From: Verrucomicrobiota bacterium
Lineage (GTDB): Bacteria; Verrucomicrobiota; Verrucomicrobiia; Chthoniobacterales; Terrimicrobiaceae
DNA: 32,564 nt
Assembly: GCA_009886045.1 (NCBI GenBank)
Contig: VFJO01000174.1
Span: 1-32,564 of the forward strand
Direction: 5' to 3'
Shown here: positions 19,538 through 32,406 of the stretch, one piece after another
How positions within the stretch are numbered: the stretch's first letter is position 1
How the letters are laid out: every line of letters begins with the position of its first letter
Translations under genes and position numbers: made by a program
The notes under the pieces: generated by a model
The model's input: only the letters and a program-made list of their open reading frames with translations
What the model was told of the DNA's origin: nothing
The model's database searches: none

Positions 19538-19634
19538 GCATTCCCAGCAGGGGGTATTTGCAGGCACCGGTAAAAATCCTTTTTTCTGAGATGCTCCTGT
19601 CGAGGGAGAAGCGCAAATGTAGTATTTTTGTGTC

Positions 19635-19948
19635 ATGGCCAAAACGGCACTATTACCCGCCTAGGTCGACTGCGGAAAAGCAAGGGCGCCGAGCAGATTT
19701 TCTCTAAACTCGGAATCACTGTGGGTGATGCGATTAAAATCTTTCTCTCACAGGTCTGCATCCAAAAAGCCATCCCTTTCGCGCCGACCACTTGCCTTCA
19801 ACTCATCCTCGACAATTCCAGCCTCGAGGAAATCGAAGCACGTTATACCGATCACACTTTCAATGCGGAAATCTCGGCAGCCTTAATTGAGCGACCGACC
19901 CGGAAATTCAAATCTGCCGCCGAGACTCTTCGCGCCCTTAAAACCTGA
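19635..19948 (+). pseudogene. RelB/DinJ-family antitoxin with disrupted N-terminus
   Basis: From ATG 19635 the frame reads MAKTALLPA, then TAG (19662-19664), then VDCGK. The family body continues only after a one-base slip at the A-run 19676-19679: KSKGAEQIFSKLGITVGDAI, then KIFLSQVCIQKAIPF, which is unmistakable DinJ/RelB. The MAKTA...ARVD-like start is the usual N-terminal DNA-binding strand, so both a nonsense change and a frameshift separate it from the toxin-binding part. An alternative TTG start at 19628 stays in the body frame but yields an unrelated leader (MCHGQNGTITRLG). The protein may therefore be missing, shortened or made without DNA binding. A sequencing error would have to explain two changes. 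The stop overlaps the toxin ATG (TGATG). Confidence 0.75.
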
Positions 19949-20253
19949 TGTGTGAAATCAAACTCGCGAGCCAGTTCAAGCAGGATTACAAAAAGCTGGA
20001 TTGCGAGAAAGGTCTGGATGATCTACCCGAAAAAGCCATCGATCTCCCATCGACAGGGCAGTCGTCGAATGCGCGTCTCCGCGATCATCCTTTCAAAGCG
20101 GGATATGTGGGATGCCGCGAGTTCCATTTCAAACCGGACTTGCTAGTCATCTATGTCCAAACGGACGAAGAACTCCAATTGGTGAGCTTGGGTAGGCACA
20201 GCGATTTGTTCGAGTGGGTGGAATTTACAGCACAAATTGGCGACTATCATTAA
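19948..20253 (+). CDS. YafQ-family mRNA interferase toxin
   Basis: A 101-residue RelE-superfamily toxin that would cut mRNA on the ribosome. Aligned by eye to E. coli YafQ, His47, His60, Asp64, His84 and Phe88 occupy the catalytic positions with the same spacing (H50, H63, D67, H87, F91 in E. coli); the Trp after the Asp is Leu65 here. The segments are RDHPFKAGYVGCREFHFKPD and LVSLGRHSDLFEW. The protein continues about 13 residues past the normal end, and the stretch PEKAIDLPSTGQSSN is slightly unlike typical relatives, so some decay is possible. Its start overlaps the antitoxin stop. With the antitoxin damaged, either the toxin is weak or the antitoxin still works. Confidence 0.85.
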   Translation: MCEIKLASQFKQDYKKLDCEKGLDDLPEKAIDLPSTGQSSNARLRDHPFKAGYVGCREFHFKPDLLVIYVQTDEELQLVSLGRHSDLFEWVEFTAQIGDYH

Positions 20254-20306: not shown

Positions 20307-20771
20307 ATGAAAGTGCACCTTCACCATATTCCGGAAGGGGACACGCTGCACATCGAAGGCGAGGAAACCCCCGCAACTTTGGAACTCGAACAGGGTGGCT
20401 TCACCCCAACCACGACTCTGTGGTACTCGCTCGATGTCGGCCTGAGCGGTGGAGGGTTGTTTGCTATAGGGAGCCTTTCCATTCGGGGAAAAATGCAATG
20501 CGTCAACTGTCTCGAAGATTTCGAATGGGATCTGATCGTTGATCCCTTTTCGATGCAAATTGATTTACCAAAAGCGGAGTTGATTGACTTGACCCCTGAG
20601 GTCAGAGAGGATATGCATCTTGCCCTGCCCGCGCACCCCAAGTGCGACAGCGGCGGTGAAAAGCAATGCCCCGCGCGTCGCGATGACTCCCGAGTTGCCT
20701 TTGTGCAGCCGGTCGGAAAGTCCGTGCCGGCATGGGACGCGCTGGACAAGCTAAAACCAAAACTAAAGTAA
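20307..20771 (+). CDS. YceD / DUF177 family protein
   Basis: A 154-residue protein of the DUF177 family, which is usually encoded just before rpmF and is linked to ribosomal RNA or large-subunit function. Cys65 and Cys68 in [12 protein letters not shown] are the first family hallmark; Cys113 and Cys121 in the [11 protein letters not shown] region are probably the second pair, together resembling a metal-binding site. The acidic strand-rich middle ([20 protein letters not shown]) also fits. The adjacent L32 gene begins four bases after its stop, supporting both identification and cotranscription. The exact biochemical role is not established here. Confidence 0.88.
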
Positions 20772-20775
20772 AATT

Positions 20776-20958
20776 ATGGGAGTTCCCAAACGCAAAACCT
20801 CAAAAATGCGCCTTCGCACGCGCAAGGCAGCAAACCGCTGGCAAGCCCCTAAGCTCGCCAAATGCCCTCAATGCAGCGCATCCGTTCCCGGTCATGTCGC
20901 CTGCCCGTCCTGCGGATATTACAACAAACGCCAGGTCTTAACAATCGGCGCTGAGTAG
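20776..20958 (+). CDS. rpmF: 50S ribosomal protein L32
   Basis: A 60-residue basic ribosomal protein. [20 protein letters not shown] is the conserved start (usually [11 protein letters not shown]...), and Cys30, Cys33, Cys43 and Cys46 form a zinc ribbon (CPQC...CPSC). Length and context between yceD and plsX are canonical. The start is fixed by the family N-terminus. Confidence 0.98.
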
Positions 20959-20982: not shown

Positions 20983-22017
20983 ATGAAAATTGCCCTCGAC
21001 GCCATGGGAGGGGATTATGCCCCGCAAAATCCCATAGCGGGAGCCATCCAAGCACTGCGCGATTTTCCCGATGTGGAGATTATTTTCGTTGGTGATGAGT
21101 CCAAAGTTCGTGCCGAACTCGCGAAGCACGCCACCGCCGATATCCAGTCCCGCTACTCCTGCCTCCATGCCTCACAAGTCGTGGACATGTCCGATAGCGG
21201 GCTCGATAGTGTTCGGAGAAAGAAAGACTCATCCGTAAGTCGCGCGGTTGATCTCGTCAAATCGGGTGATGCCGACGCGGTGGTCTCCGCTGGGCATACA
21301 GGCGCTCTTGTGGCGGCTTCGACCATCAAGCTTCGTACTTTGCCTGGCATCGAGCGTGCTGCTCTCGGTGTGCTCATTCCAGCCGATAGCGGGGTTTTCC
21401 TCTTGATTGACGGCGGAGCGAATATCGACCCGAGTCCCCGGCACATCGTGGGATTTGCTGTGATGGGGGCCGTTTATTACAAGGCCATCGTTGGGACACC
21501 CGAGGCGCGTGTCGGACTGCTCAATATCGGCACCGAACCGGGCAAGGGCACCGATTTTTGTCGCGAGTGCCACCAGTTGCTCAGCGAGGCGCCCGTGAAC
21601 TTTGCAGGAAATGTCGAAGGACACGGCATTTTTAAAAAGCCCGTGGAAGTCGTCGTCTGCGATGGATTCACCGGGAATATCTTTCTGAAAACCGTTGAGG
21701 GGCTCGCCAAATCAATGGTCTCGTGGATCAAGGAGGAAATCCAAAAAAACCCGCTTCGAATGCTTGGCGCTCTTCTCTCTCAAGGCGCATTCAAGGCGGT
21801 GAAAAAAAGGACAAGCACCGATGAATATGGCGGCACACCCTTGCTTGGAGTCAATGGCATTTGCATCAAGGCACATGGCAACTCCTCCGCTCTCGCTCTG
21901 CGCAATGCCATTCGCGCCGCCCGCATGGCAGTCGAACTTCAAATCAACAACCGCATCGTCGAGGCGATGAAACCACTTCATGAAAAACTCCCTTCGCGAC
22001 ATCCAGCCTCGGTCTAA
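20983..22017 (+). CDS. plsX: Phosphate acyltransferase
   Basis: PlsX converts acyl-ACP and phosphate to acyl-phosphate, the first committed donor for phospholipid synthesis by PlsY. The 344-residue protein starts MKIALDAMGGDYAPQNPIAG, the family signature, and has SAGHTGALVAAS, PRHIVGFAVMGAVYY and VCDGFTGNIFLKTVEG. It is peripheral to the membrane. It lies 24 bases after rpmF and its end overlaps fabH by 38 bases, so the yceD-rpmF-plsX-fabH set is a single transcript by all appearances. Confidence 0.97.
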   Translation: MKIALDAMGGDYAPQNPIAGAIQALRDFPDVEIIFVGDESKVRAELAKHATADIQSRYSCLHASQVVDMSDSGLDSVRRKKDSSVSRAVDLVKSGDADAVVSAGHTGALVAASTIKLRTLPGIERAALGVLIPADSGVFLLIDGGANIDPSPRHIVGFAVMGAVYYKAIVGTPEARVGLLNIGTEPGKGTDFCRECHQLLSEAPVNFAGNVEGHGIFKKPVEVVVCDGFTGNIFLKTVEGLAKSMVSWIKEEIQKNPLRMLGALLSQGAFKAVKKRTSTDEYGGTPLLGVNGICIKAHGNSSALALRNAIRAARMAVELQINNRIVEAMKPLHEKLPSRHPASV

Positions 22018-22996
22018 TCGCAGCGCCTCTATCATTGGTACCGGCAGCTACGTGCCAGAGCGTGTCATGACCAATTCGGATCTCGAAGCCATGGTGGAGA
22101 CAAACCACCAGTGGATCGTAGAACGGACCGGAATCTACGAGCGCCGCATCGCAGCGGAAAACGAATTCACCAGTCACATGGCTGCAAAAGCCGCCCAAGC
22201 AGCCATGGAAAATGCCGGTGTGACCCCAGAGGAAATCGACATGATCCTCGTTGCCACAATCACTCCGGACATGTTTTTTCCATCAACCGCTTGTCAGGTT
22301 CAGCGTCACATCGGGGCGAAAAATGCGACGTGCATGGATGTGAATGCCGCCTGCTCTGGCTTTCTTTATTGCGTCGAAATCGCAAACCAATTTATCTCAA
22401 ATCACGCCTGCGAAACCGTGCTTGTCATCGGCGCCGATAAGCTCAGCAGCATCGTCAACTGGGAGGATCGTAACACTTGCGTCCTCTTCGGGGATGGCGC
22501 CGGAGCCGCGATCCTTCGTCACCGTCCCGGCTCAAAAGGTGTCGTCACAACGTACATGGGCAGTGATGGGAACTATGGAGATATCCTCCACATGCCCGGT
22601 GGCGGTTGTGCCAAGCCGATCACCCGCGAAAATGTGGATGACAAACTCAACACCCTCCAAATGAATGGACGCGAAACATTCAAGCAGGCTGTGACTTCCA
22701 TGATGCGTGCCGCAAATATCGTTCTCGAGCGATGTGGCCTCACCTCGAACGACATCCAATGCGTGATCCCGCATCAAGCAAACATCCGGATTATTGAGGC
22801 CATGGCGGGCCGCATGGATCTCACGATGGACCGCTTTCACATCAATCTCGACAAATACGGCAACACCTCTGCTGCGGCAGTTGCTATCGCTCTGGATGAA
22901 GCGGCGCGCGTCGGTCGATTCCAGAAGGGCGACCCGATTCTCCTCGTTGTTTTCGGTGGCGGTCTCACCTATGCCAGCTCAGTCATCGAGTGGTAG
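21980..22996 (+). CDS. fabH: Beta-ketoacyl-ACP synthase III
   Basis: FabH condenses acetyl-CoA with malonyl-ACP to start fatty acid synthesis. The 338-residue protein has the full catalytic triad: Cys125 in VNAACSGFLYC, His in CVIPHQANIRI and Asn in DKYGNTSAAAVAIAL. The glycine-rich end FGGGLTYASSVIEW is typical. The start ATG 21980 lies inside plsX; a short extra leader (MKNSLRDIQPRSNRS) precedes the usual ASIIGTGSYVPE, so a later start cannot be excluded, but no better candidate is visible. The stop overlaps the nitric oxide synthase start. Confidence 0.96.
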   Translation: MKNSLRDIQPRSNRSASIIGTGSYVPERVMTNSDLEAMVETNHQWIVERTGIYERRIAAENEFTSHMAAKAAQAAMENAGVTPEEIDMILVATITPDMFFPSTACQVQRHIGAKNATCMDVNAACSGFLYCVEIANQFISNHACETVLVIGADKLSSIVNWEDRNTCVLFGDGAGAAILRHRPGSKGVVTTYMGSDGNYGDILHMPGGGCAKPITRENVDDKLNTLQMNGRETFKQAVTSMMRAANIVLERCGLTSNDIQCVIPHQANIRIIEAMAGRMDLTMDRFHINLDKYGNTSAAAVAIALDEAARVGRFQKGDPILLVVFGGGLTYASSVIEW

Positions 22997-24084
22997 CCGA
23001 AGATTCCACCCGCGAGGCACTCGACTTTCTTGAGGCTTTTGCCCTCGAGAAAAAAATCGATTCCGCCACGCATGCGCAGCGTGCTCAGGCCGCGCGTGAG
23101 GAACTCGCTTCCAGAGGAAGCTGGACGCCGACATTTGATGAGCTCGAGCATGGTGCCCGCATGGCTTGGAGAAACAATGCCCGCTGCATTGGTCGTCTGT
23201 TCTGGCCCTCCCTCAAAGTCCGTGACCTGCGACACATTTCCGAGCCCAGCGAGGTATATCGAGCCCTTCTCGAGCATCTCGACACCGCGACAAACGCGGG
23301 AAAAATTCAGCCATTCCTTACGGTTTTTGCTCCAGCAACGAGCGAGGGTTCCGCCGTGAGAATCTGGAACCACCAACTCCTCAGCTACGCCGGCTACGAA
23401 CAGCCCGACGGTACCATCCTCGGTGATCCGAAAAATGTGGCATTCACTCGCCATGCCCTTGCCCTCGGCTGGAGAGGCGAGGGGATCCGTTTTGATCTCC
23501 TCCCTCTCATCATCCAAAAACGTGGTTGCGAGCCTGTGCTTTTTCCACCTCCCCACACTCAAACCTTGGAAGTTTCTCTGAAGCACCCGAGCCTGCCATG
23601 GTTCCCTGATTTGGGACTGAAATGGTACGCTGTTCCCATTCTTTCTGATATGCGCCTGCGTCTCGGAGGACTCGATTTTCCGGCCGCGCCATTCAATGGC
23701 TGGTATATGGGAACCGAAATCGGCTCACGGGATTTGGGTGACGAAGCCCGCTATGATATGCTTCCGGCCGTCGCGGAAAAAATGGGCATTGATTGTGGGA
23801 CGGATTCCCTCTGGAAAGACCGGGCGCTCGTCGAACTCAATGCGGCGGTCATTTTTTCCTTTGAGGAGTCTGGTGTGCGCATTGTGGATCACCACCGCGC
23901 GTCCTCCGAATTCATGGAATTTGCCGCGCGCGAAATGAAGGCCGGTCGTGCCGTTTCTGCCGAGTGGAGTTGGATCGTTCCGCCGATGTCTGGGTCCGCC
24001 ACACCCGTTTTCCATAAACTCTGGGAGAACAGTTTGCAGCTCCCTGACTACCTGCCCCAACCCCACGCCTGGGATTGTTTTTGA
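22990..24084 (+). CDS. nos: Nitric oxide synthase, oxygenase-only bacterial type
   Basis: The 364-residue product matches bacterial NOS oxygenases, which oxidise L-arginine to citrulline and nitric oxide with reducing power from separate flavoproteins. Cys66 in MAWRNNARCIGRLFW is the heme thiolate ligand. QLLSYAGYEQPDG and RFDLLPLIIQ line the active site, Glu243 in FNGWYMGTEIGSRDLGD binds the arginine guanidinium, and SWIVPPMSGSATPVFH contains the pterin-stacking Trp. There is no fused reductase domain. The only sensible start is GTG 22990, which overlaps the fabH stop by seven bases; this implies translational coupling. Length equals the Bacillus enzymes. No tetrahydrobiopterin gene is in the window. 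Confidence 0.95.
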   Translation: MVAEDSTREALDFLEAFALEKKIDSATHAQRAQAAREELASRGSWTPTFDELEHGARMAWRNNARCIGRLFWPSLKVRDLRHISEPSEVYRALLEHLDTATNAGKIQPFLTVFAPATSEGSAVRIWNHQLLSYAGYEQPDGTILGDPKNVAFTRHALALGWRGEGIRFDLLPLIIQKRGCEPVLFPPPHTQTLEVSLKHPSLPWFPDLGLKWYAVPILSDMRLRLGGLDFPAAPFNGWYMGTEIGSRDLGDEARYDMLPAVAEKMGIDCGTDSLWKDRALVELNAAVIFSFEESGVRIVDHHRASSEFMEFAAREMKAGRAVSAEWSWIVPPMSGSATPVFHKLWENSLQLPDYLPQPHAWDCF

Positions 24085-24145: not shown

Positions 24146-25408
24146 ATGCGCCGACTCATTTTTTCTGCCTTCCTTGCTCTCAGCCTTACGGCGCAAGCCC
24201 GCGAGGCCTCGACAGCGGCCACGCCCTCAAAGAATGAAGAATCACCCTACGAACAACTCCAGCTCTTGGCTCGCGCCATACAGCTCATTCGGCAGGATTA
24301 TGTCGATGAGACAAAAATTGATTACAAAGAACTCACCTACAGTGCCCTTCGTGGCATGCTCGACCATCTTGACCCCCACAGCCAGTTCATGGAGCCCAAA
24401 AGCTTCAAAAGCATGCAGGAGGACACTCGTAGCGAATTCGGCGGTCTCGGCGTGGTTGTCACTCAGAAATCCGGCATACTCACCGTCATCAACCCCATGG
24501 AAGACACCCCAGGCTTCAAAGCCGGAATCCTGCCAGGGGACCAAATTTTAAAAATCAACGGCGAAAACACAGATAACTTGGCACTCAACGATGCCGTTGA
24601 AAAACTCCGAGGCAACCCCGGAGAAAAAGTGAGTCTCACGCTCAGACGCCCATCCACTGGCGAGGTGAAGGATTATGAAATCGCCCGCGAGGTCATCAAG
24701 GTGGCAAGTATCAAGGATGTCTGCATTCTTCCCCGGCGCGACCCCGCACAGGCACGCATCGGCTATGCACGCATCACTCAGTTTAACGAGCCCACTGCCG
24801 CGGAATTAGGTGCCGCGCTTGACAAATTAGAGGCTCAGGGGATGGATGCTTTGATCCTCGACCTGAGGCACAATCCCGGGGGGCTTCTCGGAAGTGCAGT
24901 GGATGTTTGCGGCCACTTTGTCCCTCCGAACACGCTCGTTGTTTCCACGGAAGGCCGCGCTGCTTCGCGGGAATACAGAACCTCTGTAAAAGCTGCTCCT
25001 CATCGCAAGTATCCCCTCGTTGTGTTGACCAATTATGCGAGCGCTAGCGGTTCTGAAATTGTTGCGGGCGCACTCAAGGATCTGGACCGCGCACTCATTG
25101 TCGGCGAAACCACCTTCGGCAAGGGATCCGTTCAGAGCATCGTCTCGCTACCAGATGGCTCTGCCGCACGTCTCACCACCGCAAAATATTTTACCCCCGG
25201 TCGCAAGCTCATCCACGAGCACGGGGTGAGTCCCCACATCCGTGCCACGCTCACTAATGAAGAAGAATCAGAGCTCCTCCGCTCGCGTCGCAAACGTGAG
25301 GACCCTGCCACTTCGGAAACTGCAATCTGGGATCCTCAGCTCGAGCGGGCGGTGGATGCCCTGCTCGGCTCGCAGCAGCACGTCAAAAATCAAAACGCAA
25401 AAAAGTAA
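24146..25408 (+). CDS. ctpA: Carboxyl-terminal processing protease (S41 family)
   Basis: A 420-residue exported serine protease that trims or degrades proteins with exposed C-termini. Residues 1-18 are a signal peptide (MRRLIFSAFLALSLTAQA). A PDZ domain covers about 96-172, with FGGLGVVVTQKSGILTVINP and ILPGDQILKINGE. The peptidase domain carries LILDLRHNPGGLLGSAV, catalytic Ser301 in NYASASGSEIVAGAL and catalytic Lys326 in GETTFGKGSVQ, 25 residues later as in E. coli Prc. It acts in the periplasm. Its TAA overlaps the tsaD ATG by one base. Confidence 0.95.
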   Translation: MRRLIFSAFLALSLTAQAREASTAATPSKNEESPYEQLQLLARAIQLIRQDYVDETKIDYKELTYSALRGMLDHLDPHSQFMEPKSFKSMQEDTRSEFGGLGVVVTQKSGILTVINPMEDTPGFKAGILPGDQILKINGENTDNLALNDAVEKLRGNPGEKVSLTLRRPSTGEVKDYEIAREVIKVASIKDVCILPRRDPAQARIGYARITQFNEPTAAELGAALDKLEAQGMDALILDLRHNPGGLLGSAVDVCGHFVPPNTLVVSTEGRAASREYRTSVKAAPHRKYPLVVLTNYASASGSEIVAGALKDLDRALIVGETTFGKGSVQSIVSLPDGSAARLTTAKYFTPGRKLIHEHGVSPHIRATLTNEEESELLRSRRKREDPATSETAIWDPQLERAVDALLGSQQHVKNQNAKK

Positions 25409-26439: not shown

Positions 26440-26568
26440 AAAACGCAACGACTGGATTGTCCGGAGCGTAAAAATTTGCGAAACAATCCTGATCCATGAA
26501 ATTTTCATTTTCAGACGTCAATTTTTAATTTCTAGTGATCCTGTAGATTTGAAACCTCATTTTTGAAA

Positions 26569-28338
26569 ATGCCAGCCACTACCATCGACGCACCCGTTCA
26601 AGAGTCCGCTCCCCACGCTCATCCTGAGCACCCAACTAGCTTTTTCCATAAATATCTTTGGACCTACGATCACAAGATGATCGGTCTTCAGTATCTTTGG
26701 ACCGCCCTTGCTTTTCTTTTCCTCGGTGGCGCTCTTGCTTTGGGAGTTCGCTGGCAGCTCGGCTTTCCCGGTGCGGAAATTCCCCTAATCGGGCGGCTCC
26801 TTCCAGCAACCGTTGCTGTTGACGGCTCCATTATTCCCGGCGGTTACAATATGCTCGTGACGATGCATGCGACTATAATGGTCTTCTTCGTCGTGATGCC
26901 TCTTCTGATCGGAGCCTTCGGCAATTACCTGATTCCACTTCAAATTGGCGCGGGTGACATGGCGTTTCCGCTTTTGAACGAGTTAAGTTATTGGCTCTAT
27001 GTCCTGTCTGGTATCATTCTCCTTGGTGCCTTCTTCGCGCCAGGTGGAGCTCCGGGAACAGGTTGGACGGCCTACGCACCGCTCAGTTCTGTGGCTGCTT
27101 ACAATGGAACACCGATCGGTCAAAGTCTCTGGGGAGCAGCATTATTCATAAACGGTCTATCGTCCATCGCTGGGGCTACAAATTATATCACGACTGTCGT
27201 CAACATGCGCGCCCCCGGCATGACCATGTTTCGCATGCCATTGCCAGTCTGGTCGCTTTTCATCACGGCAATTCTGCTCATCGTGGCCGTGCCAGTCCTC
27301 TCTGCTGCCGCTGCGATGCTCTTCGCAGATTTGAACATGGGTACGAGTTTCTTCTCTCCTCAAGGCGGTGGGCAGCCTCTCCTCTGGCAGCACCTCTTCT
27401 GGTTCTTCGGGCATCCAGAGGTTTACATCATGATCTTGCCGGCCATGGGCTTGACCTCGGAAATTTTAGCCGTCTTTTCCCGCAAGCCGGTTTTTGGTTA
27501 CAAGGCGATGGTCTATGCCATGATTGCCATCGGGTTTCTTGGCTTCGTCGTGTGGGGGCACCACATGTTTGTCAGCGGCATGAATCTGACTCTCAGCGCC
27601 GCGTTCTCGGTATCCACCATGGTGATTGCAGTGCCCTCCGCTATCAAAACTTTCAACTGGATGGGCACGATTTGGCGTGGTTCGATTGAATTCACAACAG
27701 CCATGTGCTTTGCATTGGCTTTTGTGTCCATGTTTGTCATTGGCGGATTGAGTGGCATTTTCATGGCTTCCACACCGGTCGATCTTTTTGTTCACCACAC
27801 TTATTTCATCGTAGCCCACTTCCACTACGTGCTCTTCGGCGGAAGTATATTCGCCATCTTTGGAGCGATCTATTTCTGGTTCCCCAAAATGTTTGGACGC
27901 ATGCTCAATGAGTCGCTCGGCAAGGCTCACTTCTTCCTCACACTTCTTTTCTTCAACCTCACTTTCTTCCCGATGCACAATTTGGGCCTCGGTGGGATGA
28001 TGCGCCGCATCGCAGACCCCACCGTCTATGAGCACCTACGCCAACTTCAGCCGCTCAACCAGCTCTGCACAATTGGCGCGATCGGACTTGGCTTCACCAC
28101 ATTCCTCTTCCTATGGAATGTCGTCATGAGTCTGCGCAATGGAAAAAAAGCTCCGAACAATCCTTGGCATTCCAACACTCTTGAGTGGACGGTGCCATCG
28201 CCTCCTGGGCATGGCAATTTTGACAAAACGCCTGTCGTCTACCACGGACCCTACGAATACAGCGTTCCTGGTCTTGACAAGGATTACCTGCCTCAGACCG
28301 AGCGTGCGCCCGAAGGTGCTCGCCTTGAGTCCCACTAA
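26569..28338 (+). CDS. ctaD: Cytochrome c oxidase subunit I, A1-type aa3 oxidase
   Basis: The 589-residue core subunit reduces oxygen and pumps protons in the inner membrane. Heme a ligands are His100 (TMHATIMVFF) and His419, heme a3 ligand His417 (AHFHYVLFGG). CuB ligands are His282, His331 and His332, with Tyr286 of GHPEVY as the cross-linked tyrosine and Glu284 marking an A1-type enzyme. Asp130 (GAGDMAFP) and Lys360 (SAIKTFNW) are the D- and K-channel residues, so proton pumping is expected. ATG 26569 is used; a TTG two codons earlier is unlikely. Subunit II, which normally precedes this gene, is absent; tsaD is directly upstream. The 129-base gap before it holds no gene. Confidence 0.96.
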   Translation: MPATTIDAPVQESAPHAHPEHPTSFFHKYLWTYDHKMIGLQYLWTALAFLFLGGALALGVRWQLGFPGAEIPLIGRLLPATVAVDGSIIPGGYNMLVTMHATIMVFFVVMPLLIGAFGNYLIPLQIGAGDMAFPLLNELSYWLYVLSGIILLGAFFAPGGAPGTGWTAYAPLSSVAAYNGTPIGQSLWGAALFINGLSSIAGATNYITTVVNMRAPGMTMFRMPLPVWSLFITAILLIVAVPVLSAAAAMLFADLNMGTSFFSPQGGGQPLLWQHLFWFFGHPEVYIMILPAMGLTSEILAVFSRKPVFGYKAMVYAMIAIGFLGFVVWGHHMFVSGMNLTLSAAFSVSTMVIAVPSAIKTFNWMGTIWRGSIEFTTAMCFALAFVSMFVIGGLSGIFMASTPVDLFVHHTYFIVAHFHYVLFGGSIFAIFGAIYFWFPKMFGRMLNESLGKAHFFLTLLFFNLTFFPMHNLGLGGMMRRIADPTVYEHLRQLQPLNQLCTIGAIGLGFTTFLFLWNVVMSLRNGKKAPNNPWHSNTLEWTVPSPPGHGNFDKTPVVYHGPYEYSVPGLDKDYLPQTERAPEGARLESH

Positions 28339-28349
28339 TTTGTGAGTTC

Positions 28350-29396
28350 ATGGATGGAGCAAACACATCCCTGAGTCTGCGTCGGCTTGCCATTTACGCC
28401 TGGGCTTGCATCACGCTGGCCACAACGTTCCTTCTGTTGTGCAGCGGAGGGATTGTGACCTCTAAAGGTGTTGGCATGTCTGTGCCTGACTGGCCGACCA
28501 CCTATGGCTACAACATGTTCCTCTTCCCTCTCTCGGGCTGGGTCGGTGGAGTTTTTTACGAACACAGCCACCGGCTCATTGCCTCGGGCGTCGGGCTCAT
28601 GACAATGATTCTCGCCGTAGGGCTTTTGGTCGTGGAGCCGCGTCGCTGGGTCAGAAATCTCGGCATCATTGCCTTCATCGTTGTCTGTATCCAAGGTTTA
28701 TTGGGAGGGCTCCGCGTTTCGCTTTTTAAAGATGAAATCGGAATCTTCCATGCCATGCTGGCGCAATCATTTTTCTGCTTGCTGGGGATTCTGACGCTGG
28801 CGACAAGTCCGAGCTTCATGCGCCGAGCATGGGATGTTTTCTTGCCCGATCCCGTCTTAAAAAACCTTGTCGTCGGAGCCACTGGTCTCATCTTTTTACA
28901 ACTCAGCCTTGGTGCGACGATGCGGCATGAGCATGCAGGCCTAGCGATTCCTGACTTCCCTCTGGCCTATGGGAAAATCCTGCCTGACACCTCGGCGGCC
29001 TCAATCGCTGCAATCAACTCGGCTCGTGTTGCCGATAATAAAATGCCCACCACGGCTGCATACGTCTGGATTCAGATGGCTCACCGGGGGGTGGCCGTTG
29101 CAATACTGCTTGCTGTTGTCGCTGCGGCATGGCGTGCCTTCACTAATCCCATCGCCCGCGCGGCGCGCCTGTGGGCAGGCGTGTGGCTTCTGATGATTTT
29201 CGCTCAGGTGCTCTTAGGCGCTTGGACAATCTGGTCCGATAAAGCTGCCGATGTTGCAACCGCCCACATGGCGCTTGGAGCCTTGTCTCTCATCGTGGGG
29301 GTTGTTCTCTCTTTCCGCCTCTGGCGCGGAGCGGAAGCGGGTCGCTTTGTCATTCCCGACCAACCCCCAGTTTTGAACTTTGCCCGTATCGCATGA
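28350..29396 (+). CDS. ctaA: Heme A synthase
   Basis: CtaA/Cox15 oxidises the methyl group of heme O to make heme A. The 348-residue protein has about eight membrane segments in two similar halves. Conserved ligands are Glu71, His72 and His74 in YEHSHR, His134 in IFHAML, His245 in MAHRGV and His306 in TAHMALG. An additional RHEHAG (about 192-197) precedes a periplasmic loop. The gene begins eleven bases after ctaD and overlaps ctaB by four bases. Together with ctaB it supplies heme A to the subunit I made from the same transcript. Confidence 0.95.
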   Translation: MDGANTSLSLRRLAIYAWACITLATTFLLLCSGGIVTSKGVGMSVPDWPTTYGYNMFLFPLSGWVGGVFYEHSHRLIASGVGLMTMILAVGLLVVEPRRWVRNLGIIAFIVVCIQGLLGGLRVSLFKDEIGIFHAMLAQSFFCLLGILTLATSPSFMRRAWDVFLPDPVLKNLVVGATGLIFLQLSLGATMRHEHAGLAIPDFPLAYGKILPDTSAASIAAINSARVADNKMPTTAAYVWIQMAHRGVAVAILLAVVAAAWRAFTNPIARAARLWAGVWLLMIFAQVLLGAWTIWSDKAADVATAHMALGALSLIVGVVLSFRLWRGAEAGRFVIPDQPPVLNFARIA

Positions 29397-30283
29397 AGAG
29401 CGCCGCTGTCCTTACGCGGGAACGAAAGAACGCCTTGATCGATGATGTCCTTGAACTGGTAAAGGCCCGCCTTTCTTTTTTAGTTCTCATCACCACGCTT
29501 GTTGGATTCTTGCTTGGTTGGCAAGGGCCTTTTGACTGGGTTGTGCTTCTCGCCACGCTGCTTGGCACTGCCCTCTCCGCAGCGGGAGCTGCGGCTCTCA
29601 ACCAATGGTGGGAACGGGATATTGACAGCCTCATGAAGCGCACGAGGGACCGTCCGCTGCCCGCCCGCCGCATGCAACCGCAAGACGCTCTCCTCTTCGG
29701 TTTGTTTTTTTCTCTGAGCGGTATCGCCATCCTCACGCTTTTTGCGAATCCTCGTGCTGCCTTCCTCGCTTTCGCCACCATTGCGATCTACATCCTAGTT
29801 TACACACCTATGAAGCGCATCAGCTCGCTGAACACGCTTGTTGGCGCGATACCTGGAGCCCTGCCGCCGCTGATCGGTTGGGTTGCCGCCCGAGGCCAGT
29901 ACAATACCGAAGGGTGCCTCCTCTTCGCCACGCTCTGGTTTTGGCAGATGCCACATTTCTTAGCCATTGCTTGGATGTATAAAGACGACTACGCCGATGG
30001 AGGTTTTGTGATGCTCACCGCTAAGGACCCCGAAGGCAGTGTCACGTCGCGTCAAGCGCTTCTCTATTCCCTCTTTCTCATTCCCGTCACCCTCATGCCC
30101 TCAATTCTGGGATTCAATTCCCCCATTTACTTTTTTGGCGCTCTTGCTCTGGGCTTGGCTTTTACGGCTTTTGCGCTGCGATTCATGATGCAACGCAGTC
30201 GTGCAGCTGCACGGAATCTTTTCTTTTCCTCCATCATCTACCTGCCTCTTCTCCTCGGCCTTCTTGTCGCCACGCAAAGATGA
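29393..30283 (+). CDS. ctaB: Protoheme IX farnesyltransferase (heme O synthase)
   Basis: CtaB/Cox10 attaches a farnesyl group to heme B to give heme O. The 296-residue UbiA-superfamily protein has the prenyl-diphosphate motif NQWWERDIDSLMKRTRDRPL (about 76-95), several membrane helices and the MPHFLAIAWMYKDDYADGGF segment of the second Asp-rich motif. ATGA overlaps join it to ctaA in front and to a 39-residue membrane peptide behind. Confidence 0.96.
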   Translation: MKSAAVLTRERKNALIDDVLELVKARLSFLVLITTLVGFLLGWQGPFDWVVLLATLLGTALSAAGAAALNQWWERDIDSLMKRTRDRPLPARRMQPQDALLFGLFFSLSGIAILTLFANPRAAFLAFATIAIYILVYTPMKRISSLNTLVGAIPGALPPLIGWVAARGQYNTEGCLLFATLWFWQMPHFLAIAWMYKDDYADGGFVMLTAKDPEGSVTSRQALLYSLFLIPVTLMPSILGFNSPIYFFGALALGLAFTAFALRFMMQRSRAAARNLFFSSIIYLPLLLGLLVATQR

Positions 30284-30399
30284 AAAAAAATCTCTCCCGA
30301 AATGCGATTGTTATGATTTTTCTCTGGCTTTTTGCTATTTCCCTCTCTGCATTCGTTCTGATACTTATGAACATTCGTGGTCCCTTGATCAACCCGTGA
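30280..30399 (+). CDS. 39-residue single-pass membrane peptide in the oxidase operon
   Basis: A short frame starts with an ATG that overlaps the ctaB stop (ATGA) and ends 29 bases before subunit III. The product is MKKNLSRNAIVMIFLWLFAI followed by SLSAFVLILMNIRGPLINP: two lysines, a long hydrophobic helix (about 9-30) and a short tail. Its coupling to ctaB and location between two oxidase genes suggest a real small membrane protein, for example an assembly factor or a small accessory subunit. No family is recognised. The main reason for doubt is its length. Confidence 0.6.
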   Translation: MKKNLSRNAIVMIFLWLFAISLSAFVLILMNIRGPLINP

Positions 30400-30428
30400 C
30401 TCTTTTCTAACTAAAACCAACCATATTC

Positions 30429-31052
30429 ATGTCCACAGCAGTCCTCACCCACGATTCCCAAGAGCACAACGGCGCATCGCCAGCCACAGCCAAATTCGGC
30501 ATGATCATGTTTCTGATTTCCGAAGGCATGCTCTTCGCTGGGCTTCTTGGCGCTTATTTTGTCCTCCGCTGGTCGGGGAACGGCTTCCCATGGCAGGCAG
30601 GCCACGCTTGGCCACCGAGTCCTGACATCGCCCACCTCCCGCTTTTGCTCACTTCGATCAATACCGTCTTCCTCATCGCGAGCAGTTGCACCTTCCACAT
30701 GGGTGAGGTTGCGGTTCTCAAAGGAAAATCCGGCCTCGGCTGGCTTTTTGTGACGATCGCCCTCGGCTCCCTGTTCGTCGGCCTCCAATGCTACGAATGG
30801 TGGCATCTTCACCACGAAGGACTCTGGTTCAACACAGGCGGTGTTTATGGCTCCAGCTTTTTTGTCATCACCGGTTTCCACGGACTCCATGTGGCCATCG
30901 GCGTTCTGCTGATCCTCTGGTGCTTTCTCCGCCAACTTTTTACTCGCTGCTTCACACCTACCCGCCATATCGCGCTCAACAACGTCGCTCTCTACTGGCA
31001 CTTCGTGGATGTCGTCTGGCTGTTTGTTCTCGCACTGCTCTACTATGTCTGA
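30429..31052 (+). CDS. ctaE: Cytochrome c oxidase subunit III
   Basis: A 207-residue membrane protein with about five helices, as in short bacterial subunits III. Hallmarks are FGMIMFLISEGMLFAGLLGAYF with Glu32, the FVGLQCYEWWH segment, TGFHGLHVAIGVL and the C-terminal ALYWHFVDVVWLFVLALLYY. Subunit III does not hold redox centres but stabilises proton uptake into subunit I. The N-terminal 20 residues are hydrophilic. Its end overlaps the Sco gene by eight bases. Confidence 0.95.
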   Translation: MSTAVLTHDSQEHNGASPATAKFGMIMFLISEGMLFAGLLGAYFVLRWSGNGFPWQAGHAWPPSPDIAHLPLLLTSINTVFLIASSCTFHMGEVAVLKGKSGLGWLFVTIALGSLFVGLQCYEWWHLHHEGLWFNTGGVYGSSFFVITGFHGLHVAIGVLLILWCFLRQLFTRCFTPTRHIALNNVALYWHFVDVVWLFVLALLYYV

Positions 31053-31698
31053 AATCCACGCGCGGCCCGGAATACCGCGCATCGGATGGATCGTGGCATT
31101 TCTCGTGGCGGCGGCCCTCATCGGCCTCGCCTATGTGAGCCTCAAATCCACCCGTCCGCCTGCACTTCCCTCAAATCTTGAGAAAATTTCCAAGGTTCCC
31201 GGATTCGAACTCACCGACCAGACTGGCAACCGCGTCACGCTCGACGATCTCAAGGGAAAAATTTGGGCTGCAAATTTTATCTTCACCCGCTGCAAAGGCC
31301 CGTGCCCGATCACCGTGCTCCGGATGCAAGAACTCAACACAAAGCTCAAAAAGACGCGAGGCAATGTGCAACTCGTTACTTTCACAGTCGATCCAGAATA
31401 CGATACTCCCGAGGTTCTCAAGGCCTTTGGCGAGCAACAAGGTGCTGACCCCGCCTCCTGGAAATTCCTCACCGGCATGCCCGACGCCATTCAAAAAATC
31501 GTCGTCACTGGTCTCCTCCAACCGATTGCCAAGGAACCTGATGGTACCCCAGCCCACTCAACCCGAATCGTGCTTGTGGATGCCGACGGCTGGCTACGTG
31601 GGTACCAAGACGGTCTCGATCCCGAAGCTGTCCAAAAGCTCATGCTGGACATCGGCGAACTCCTACGCGAAGTTTCCAAAGCGACTAAAAAAAACTGA
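31045..31698 (+). CDS. Sco1/SenC family copper chaperone
   Basis: A 217-residue membrane-anchored thioredoxin-fold protein that normally delivers copper to the CuA site of subunit II. An N-terminal anchor helix (about 14-32) is followed by the soluble domain. Cys83 and Cys87 in FTRCKGPCP form the CxxxC copper site, and His171 in PAHSTRIVLVD is the third ligand. ATG 31045 is preferred; further upstream starts would extend into the coding sequence of subunit III. The presence of a CuA-loading factor makes the absence of subunit II in this cluster more striking. Four bases separate it from the next gene. Confidence 0.92.
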   Translation: MSEIHARPGIPRIGWIVAFLVAAALIGLAYVSLKSTRPPALPSNLEKISKVPGFELTDQTGNRVTLDDLKGKIWAANFIFTRCKGPCPITVLRMQELNTKLKKTRGNVQLVTFTVDPEYDTPEVLKAFGEQQGADPASWKFLTGMPDAIQKIVVTGLLQPIAKEPDGTPAHSTRIVLVDADGWLRGYQDGLDPEAVQKLMLDIGELLREVSKATKKN

Positions 31699-31702
31699 CT
31701 CC

Positions 31703-31975
31703 ATGGTTAAAAAATCCGCCATCAATACAATGAAACACTTCATCACCTTGTTCGTTTGCTTTTTTTTGACCCGTCTGCCCGAAGCCGCTGCATGCGTGGG
31801 TTGCAGGCAGCCCGGCACCGGGGGGCCCGACGAACCCCAAACCGTCACCGCAGGTATTGCCCTCTCTTGGGGAGTCGTTGGGATGCTCGCAATCGTCGGT
31901 CTGATCCTTGCGGGTCTCACCTACTACATCGCGGATACCTGCCGCAAACTCGACCGCAGCAATAAGGTGCCATGA
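31703..31975 (+). CDS. Small exported membrane protein with CxxC, oxidase cluster
   Basis: A 90-residue protein from ATG 31703, or 81 residues from ATG 31730, neither with a clear ribosome site. The N-terminus looks like a signal peptide (MKHFITLFVCFFLTRLPEAA) ending at AAAC, then VGCRQPGTGGPDEPQ gives a CVGC pair outside the membrane. A second hydrophobic helix (about 52-74 of the longer form) and a basic tail (CRKLDRSN) follow. The topology would be a short periplasmic segment with two cysteines tethered to the inner membrane. It could be a copper-binding or redox accessory of oxidase assembly, but no family is recognised. Its stop overlaps the next gene's ATG. Confidence 0.7.
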   Translation: MVKKSAINTMKHFITLFVCFFLTRLPEAAACVGCRQPGTGGPDEPQTVTAGIALSWGVVGMLAIVGLILAGLTYYIADTCRKLDRSNKVP

Positions 31976-32406
31976 GCGTTTCTGACCTGCCGCCTCTCAA
32001 CGCCAGCCTCAACGCCATCTCCACCGTCCTCCTCGCTGCCGGTTTCATCTTCATCAAAACCGAGCGAAAAATTGCGCACCGCAACTGCATGCTCGCCGCG
32101 TTTTCCGTCTCCTGCGTCTTCCTCATCACCTACGTGCTTCACAAGATTTTAGTCCACGGCGTTCATACCCCCTTTGGCGGCGAAGGTTTCTGGCGCACCT
32201 TCTATTACAGCATGCTCATCTCGCACATCATTCTGGCCATCGTCATCGTCCCTCTCATCTTGGTGACTATGACGCATGCCATCAAAGGCCGCTTTGAAAA
32301 ACACCGCGCTTGGGCCCGGTGGACATTCCCGCTCTGGTTCTATGTCTCCGTCACCGGCGTGCTTGTTTACTTCATGCTCTACCAGTGGTTTCCTAAAATC
32401 GCCTGA
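31972..32406 (+). CDS. DUF420 membrane protein, CtaM-like
   Basis: A 144-residue protein with four hydrophobic segments. HRNCMLAAFSVSCVFLITYV, the YVLHKILVHG segment, YYSMLISHIILAIVIVPL and KHRAWARWTFPLWFYVSVTG fit the DUF420 family, which includes the Bacillus/Staphylococcus CtaM (YozB) needed for maturation of heme A-containing oxidases. The conserved histidines (in HRN, HK, SHI and KHR) suggest heme or metal contact. It overlaps the previous gene by four bases (ATGA) and is the last intact member of the oxidase cluster in view. Confidence 0.88.
   Translation: MSVSDLPPLNASLNAISTVLLAAGFIFIKTERKIAHRNCMLAAFSVSCVFLITYVLHKILVHGVHTPFGGEGFWRTFYYSMLISHIILAIVIVPLILVTMTHAIKGRFEKHRAWARWTFPLWFYVSVTGVLVYFMLYQWFPKIA

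Follow-up and report, generated by a model that had tools for sequence, protein, structure and literature searches.

A nitric oxide synthase with Leu218 and Asp248 encoded directly behind fabH in a genus of Verrucomicrobiota

Introduction

Bacterial nitric oxide synthases (NOSs) have been studied chiefly in Gram-positive bacteria and Deinococcus. The enzymes of Bacillus subtilis and Geobacillus stearothermophilus (structures 1m7v and 2flq) consist of a single oxygenase domain, and the Sorangium-type NOS carries the same domain together with an N-terminal reductase module. Bacterial NOSs accept non-specific cellular reductases (PMC6104048), and in S. aureus the nitrite derived from NOS promotes aerobic respiration (PMC5539425). 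The release of NO is set by a gate position occupied by Val or Ile, the latter being stated for all bacterial NOSs in one account (PMC6104048) and for the majority of them in another, in which gate mutants to Phe, Tyr, Arg, Ser and Thr were made (PMC6120233).

The sequence-only reading from which this analysis started held that oxygenase-only NOS is known mainly from Firmicutes, Deinococcus and some actinobacteria, a picture that is outdated since NOS was noted in metagenome-assembled genomes (MAGs) of freshwater Verrucomicrobia, with no toxin genes adjacent, in 2017 (Cabello-Yeves et al., PMC5673642). That study concerns the same phylum and habitat type as ours, and its text contains no fabH linkage, residues or phylogeny. 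Here we describe a nos gene in a window of 32,564 nucleotides (the whole stretch of DNA analysed; contig VFJO01000174.1) from a bacterium of the Verrucomicrobiota, and compare it with its counterparts in the genus, the family and the phylum.

The encoded enzyme

The nos gene (22990..24084, plus strand) starts with GTG, the sole standard start ahead of the conserved domain, and encodes a protein of 364 amino acids. Residues 6-361 match positions 5-361 of the 362 in the Pfam profile PF02898 (NO_synthase) with a score of 485 bits (E 1.4e-145), the cut-off being 22.7; NCBIfam gave no match. The closest solved structures are those of the G. stearothermophilus enzyme (GsNOS, 2flq, E 4e-115) and of B. 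subtilis NOS (1m7v), followed by the animal enzymes, identity to the solved NOSs being about 50%. The protein can be aligned to the two bacterial enzymes over residues 29 to 358 with few gaps, and over residues 30-260 its numbering coincides, by chance and through compensating gaps, with that of B. subtilis NOS, such that Cys66 and Glu243 bear the same numbers in both. Cys66, the heme ligand within an RCIGR motif, Glu243, which binds the guanidino group of the substrate and is preceded by Trp238 and Tyr239, and the pair Trp326 and Trp328, at the pterin site near the dimer interface, are invariant in all the NOSs aligned. Unlike the Sorangium-type enzyme, the protein has no reductase domain. 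The initial description of an intact NOS with Cys66, Glu243 and the pterin Trp region is thus borne out by both profile and alignment, and the protein reads as a genuine, oxygenase-only bacterial NOS.

In another verrucomicrobial genome the NOS domain (L112, G214:C227) is fused to a preceding reductase module with BFD-[2Fe-2S] and FAD-binding parts, resembling the self-sufficient Sorangium enzyme; the same genome contains a second NOS fragment of degraded appearance (L113).

The operon and the fabH-nos junction

As first proposed, nos stands at the end of a co-directional run of genes, all on the plus strand. This run begins with a yceD/DUF177 homologue (20307..20771), the match of which to PF02620, at 32.5 bits, falls slightly below the cut-off of 33.2, and continues with rpmF (20776..20958; ribosomal protein L32, 60 amino acids, identified from sequence and position), plsX (20983..22017; phosphate acyltransferase, TIGR00182, 340 bits) and fabH (21980..22996; beta-ketoacyl-ACP synthase III, TIGR00747, 404 bits). 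The plsX and fabH frames overlap by 38 nt, and nos starts, again as proposed, seven bases inside fabH, the two frames having the stretch GTGGTAG (22990-22996) in common. Neither a promoter nor a terminator was found above chance at this junction. A pair of genes for a RelB-like antitoxin and a YafQ-type toxin (19628-20253) lies directly upstream of the operon and is missing there in a close relative (G012).

The overlap had been taken as a sign of translational coupling. This holds in part: among the 13 congeners with NOS the frames overlap in seven, as in the window, but in the remaining six they are separated by 36-44 nt and nos starts with ATG. Where there is an overlap it measures 7 nt, or possibly 4 nt, except in one genome (G006) with 26 nt; in the gapped congeners a search for a hairpin by single-sequence folds gave no consistent structure. 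Moreover, the end of fabH is conserved as Glu-Trp-stop (GAG TGG TAG/TGA), and because these codons supply a GTG free of cost, the overlap alone is weak evidence of coupling and is in part a by-product of fabH coding. Co-transcription of fabH and nos is likely across the genus, and coupling through overlapping frames is likely restricted to the seven overlapping congeners.

Downstream of nos no conserved partner was found among the congeners. A gene for an S41 carboxyl-terminal processing protease (24146..25408, plus strand) begins 61 nt after nos, and it follows nos in the window's subclade only; in several congeners HDOD/CheD/CheA genes are convergent to nos. The window also contains a cluster for an aa3-type oxidase (26563-32406), comprising coxA, ctaA/ctaB-like genes and genes for oxidase subunit III-like, SCO1-like and DUF420-like proteins, coxA alone being backed by a profile. 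In the window this cluster lies 2.5 kb downstream of nos; it stands shortly after nos in the window's subclade only and is given no weight here, because in most congeners it lies away from nos.

Conservation and inheritance of nos

In each of the 13 congeners with NOS, nos directly follows plsX-fabH. The three remaining congeners, with completeness of 64, 82 and 82%, lack not only NOS but also this fabH, and the missing nos therefore reflects assembly gaps, true absence being ruled out. NOS was not found in ten genomes of other genera of the family; in all five of these other-genus genomes searched for it, fabH is present with other genes 3' of it. Across the phylum NOS occurs in 18 of the 388 genomes sampled. 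Within the genus the supported groups of the NOS tree reappear in a tree of plsX, fabH and yceD, and in five congener pairs omega is 0.07-0.09 for NOS and 0.025-0.05 for fabH. Taken together, the sequences speak for a single old gain of nos, followed by vertical inheritance under strong purifying selection. The suggestion of a recent insertion downstream of a constitutive operon fails against the common site and the vertical tree.

An origin from phage or plasmid was also rejected, the respective collections yielding only distant NOSs (less than 60% identity). A 'viral' contig of 134 kb in IMG/VR carries an intact NOS of the Ile/Asn type (L161, 4917-6107; 48% identity); this contig may be mislabelled bacterial DNA. 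Within the genus, one genome possesses, besides its fabH-linked nos, a frame of 203 codons (L016/L138, G010:C4:241599-241868) in which the match is confined to NOS positions 189-278, with an identity of about 49%; it is a piece or relic of another NOS.

The nearest named record (96% identity) is the Spartobacteria MAG ZE-3nov15, and another congener comes from a MAG with Erken in its title; such titles point to freshwater plankton as the habitat of the genus.

We give an even chance to the possibility that the linkage to fabH has no functional meaning, nos having been captured behind a strong housekeeping operon that offered a convenient site of expression, and NOS having been kept for stress or respiration. 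The variable spacing, from an overlap of 26 nt to a gap of 44 nt, is consistent with this, as are the varying genes downstream of nos and the lack of a fabH beside nos in marine Verrucomicrobia whose NOS falls into one clade with that of the genus. On the other hand, the adjacency has been kept across the genus despite a synonymous divergence of fabH near or above saturation, and in no genome of the genus is an intact nos found at another place.

A NOS branch with Leu218 and Asp248

In a tree of 75 distinct NOSs the sequences of the genus form, together with six others (L019-L023 and L099), one branch with 100% SH-aLRT support. The six derive from Akkermansiaceae, Puniceicoccaceae, Opitutales and other Verrucomicrobia MAGs, several of them marine or estuarine by isolate name; support for the genus as a single clade within the branch is only 45/81. 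A second verrucomicrobial group (clade B: L012, L013, L098 and L100-L111), likewise oxygenase-only and from the same taxonomic class, occupies a separate branch. One of its members (L108, G406:C66) has one in-frame TAG and is thus either a pseudogene or wrongly sequenced.

Leu218 and Asp248 are present in every member of the branch to which the genus belongs, a clade signature missed by the sequence-only reading. Position 218 is the Val/Ile gate. Neither residue occurs in any of 84 NOSs from outside the phylum, a Bacillota-rich sample made up mostly of the sequences that match the window protein best, and the statement holds for that sample: position 218 is occupied by Ile in 67 and by Val in 17, and position 248 by Asn. 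With 17 instances of Val, the Ile gate is not a strict feature of the family, and the window enzyme, with its Leu, departs from it as well. Outside this branch the two residues also occur singly, Leu218 without Asp248 in L097 and L109 and Asp248 without Leu218 in L105; clade B otherwise has Ile or Val at 218 (all but L109) and Asn at 248 (all but L105). In a literature search, mostly of papers open without subscription, neither the linkage to fabH nor the Leu/Asp signature turned up in any earlier report, and both are apparently new, NOS in freshwater Verrucomicrobia being already known.

Compared with the B. subtilis and G. stearothermophilus enzymes, the window NOS has Leu218 for Ile, Asp248 for Asn and an altered C-terminal Tyr motif. 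This Tyr, which 55 of 73 other NOSs have, corresponds to residue 356 (window 24055-24057) and is exchanged in all members of the genus for Pro, Val, Gln, Ala, Ser or Leu.

From its place at the gate, Leu218 should give NO-release kinetics unlike those of the usual Ile type. A more radical consequence, that the altered heme pocket shifts the main product from free NO to nitroxyl, nitrite/nitrate or a nitrated metabolite, would accord with the presence of both residues throughout the clade and of neither in the outside-phylum sample, and with the raised NO dioxygenase activity of the iNOS V346I mutant (PMC6104048). Yet all other catalytic residues are intact, Leu at the gate is no less conservative a substitution than Ile, and no biosynthetic cluster adjoins nos, and we regard such a shift as rather improbable. 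That the gene encodes a NOS-fold heme protein devoid of NOS activity, or is decaying, is very improbable indeed given the invariant catalytic and pterin residues and the low omega in all five pairs.

Cofactor, electron supply and a proposed role

In searches for single families, the genome to which the window belongs proved to encode GTP cyclohydrolase IB (FolE2); GTP cyclohydrolase IA (FolE1) was not found in it, and its sole protein of the PTPS family is QueD-like, with a CxxxHGH motif which we take to mark QueD and not a biopterin enzyme. These three features suggest tetrahydrofolate, rather than biopterin, as the probable pterin of the enzyme. The 16 congeners lack Flavodoxin_1 proteins, such that electrons for NOS would have to come from other carriers; in this absence, as in the position of nos within a plsX-fabH operon, the genus differs from Bacillus and Geobacillus. 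H-NOX and globin families were not found in the 16 congeners either.

We consider it quite probable that the genus possesses a functional NOS encoded by the last gene of a constitutive operon, gained once by an ancestor and supplying NO in step with growth, with altered release kinetics. According to this proposal, nos would have been acquired directly after fabH by the ancestor of a planktonic verrucomicrobial genus and descended vertically since, being co-transcribed as the final gene of the constitutive yceD-rpmF-plsX-fabH operon. The putative activity is the oxidation of L-arginine to citrulline and NO, probably with tetrahydrofolate and with electrons drawn from general cellular reductases or ferredoxins. 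Since nos rides on a growth-linked lipid/ribosome transcript, the output of NO should scale with growth, and by analogy with other bacterial NOSs it would serve respiratory tuning or protection against oxidative stress; the most likely role is thus a putative low-level production of NO in step with growth.

Three observations count against this proposal. With neither an H-NOX sensor nor a globin scavenger found in the genus, no known target of NO is at hand; the exchanged C-terminal Tyr is common in other NOSs; and, as only the plsX-fabH side of the nos neighbourhood is conserved, the operon may give steady expression and not a functional link.

Implications

A broader reading, which we offer tentatively and as doubtful, is that these enzymes constitute a distinct class of NOS, defined by the Leu gate and Asp248 and residing in the lipid/ribosome operon of planktonic bacteria with no detectable H-NOX or globin, where it would provide a growth-proportional signal of NO, or of an NO-derived compound, with kinetics that match neither the animal enzymes of Val type nor the bacterial ones of Ile type. 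Earlier work on the gate compared Val with Ile and with polar or aromatic residues introduced by mutation, and a natural Leu gate offers a ready test of how one position sets the release of NO. For the organisms themselves, the retention of NOS by a genus of lake bacteria, under purifying selection and within a housekeeping operon, implies a basal and not a stress-induced role of NO.
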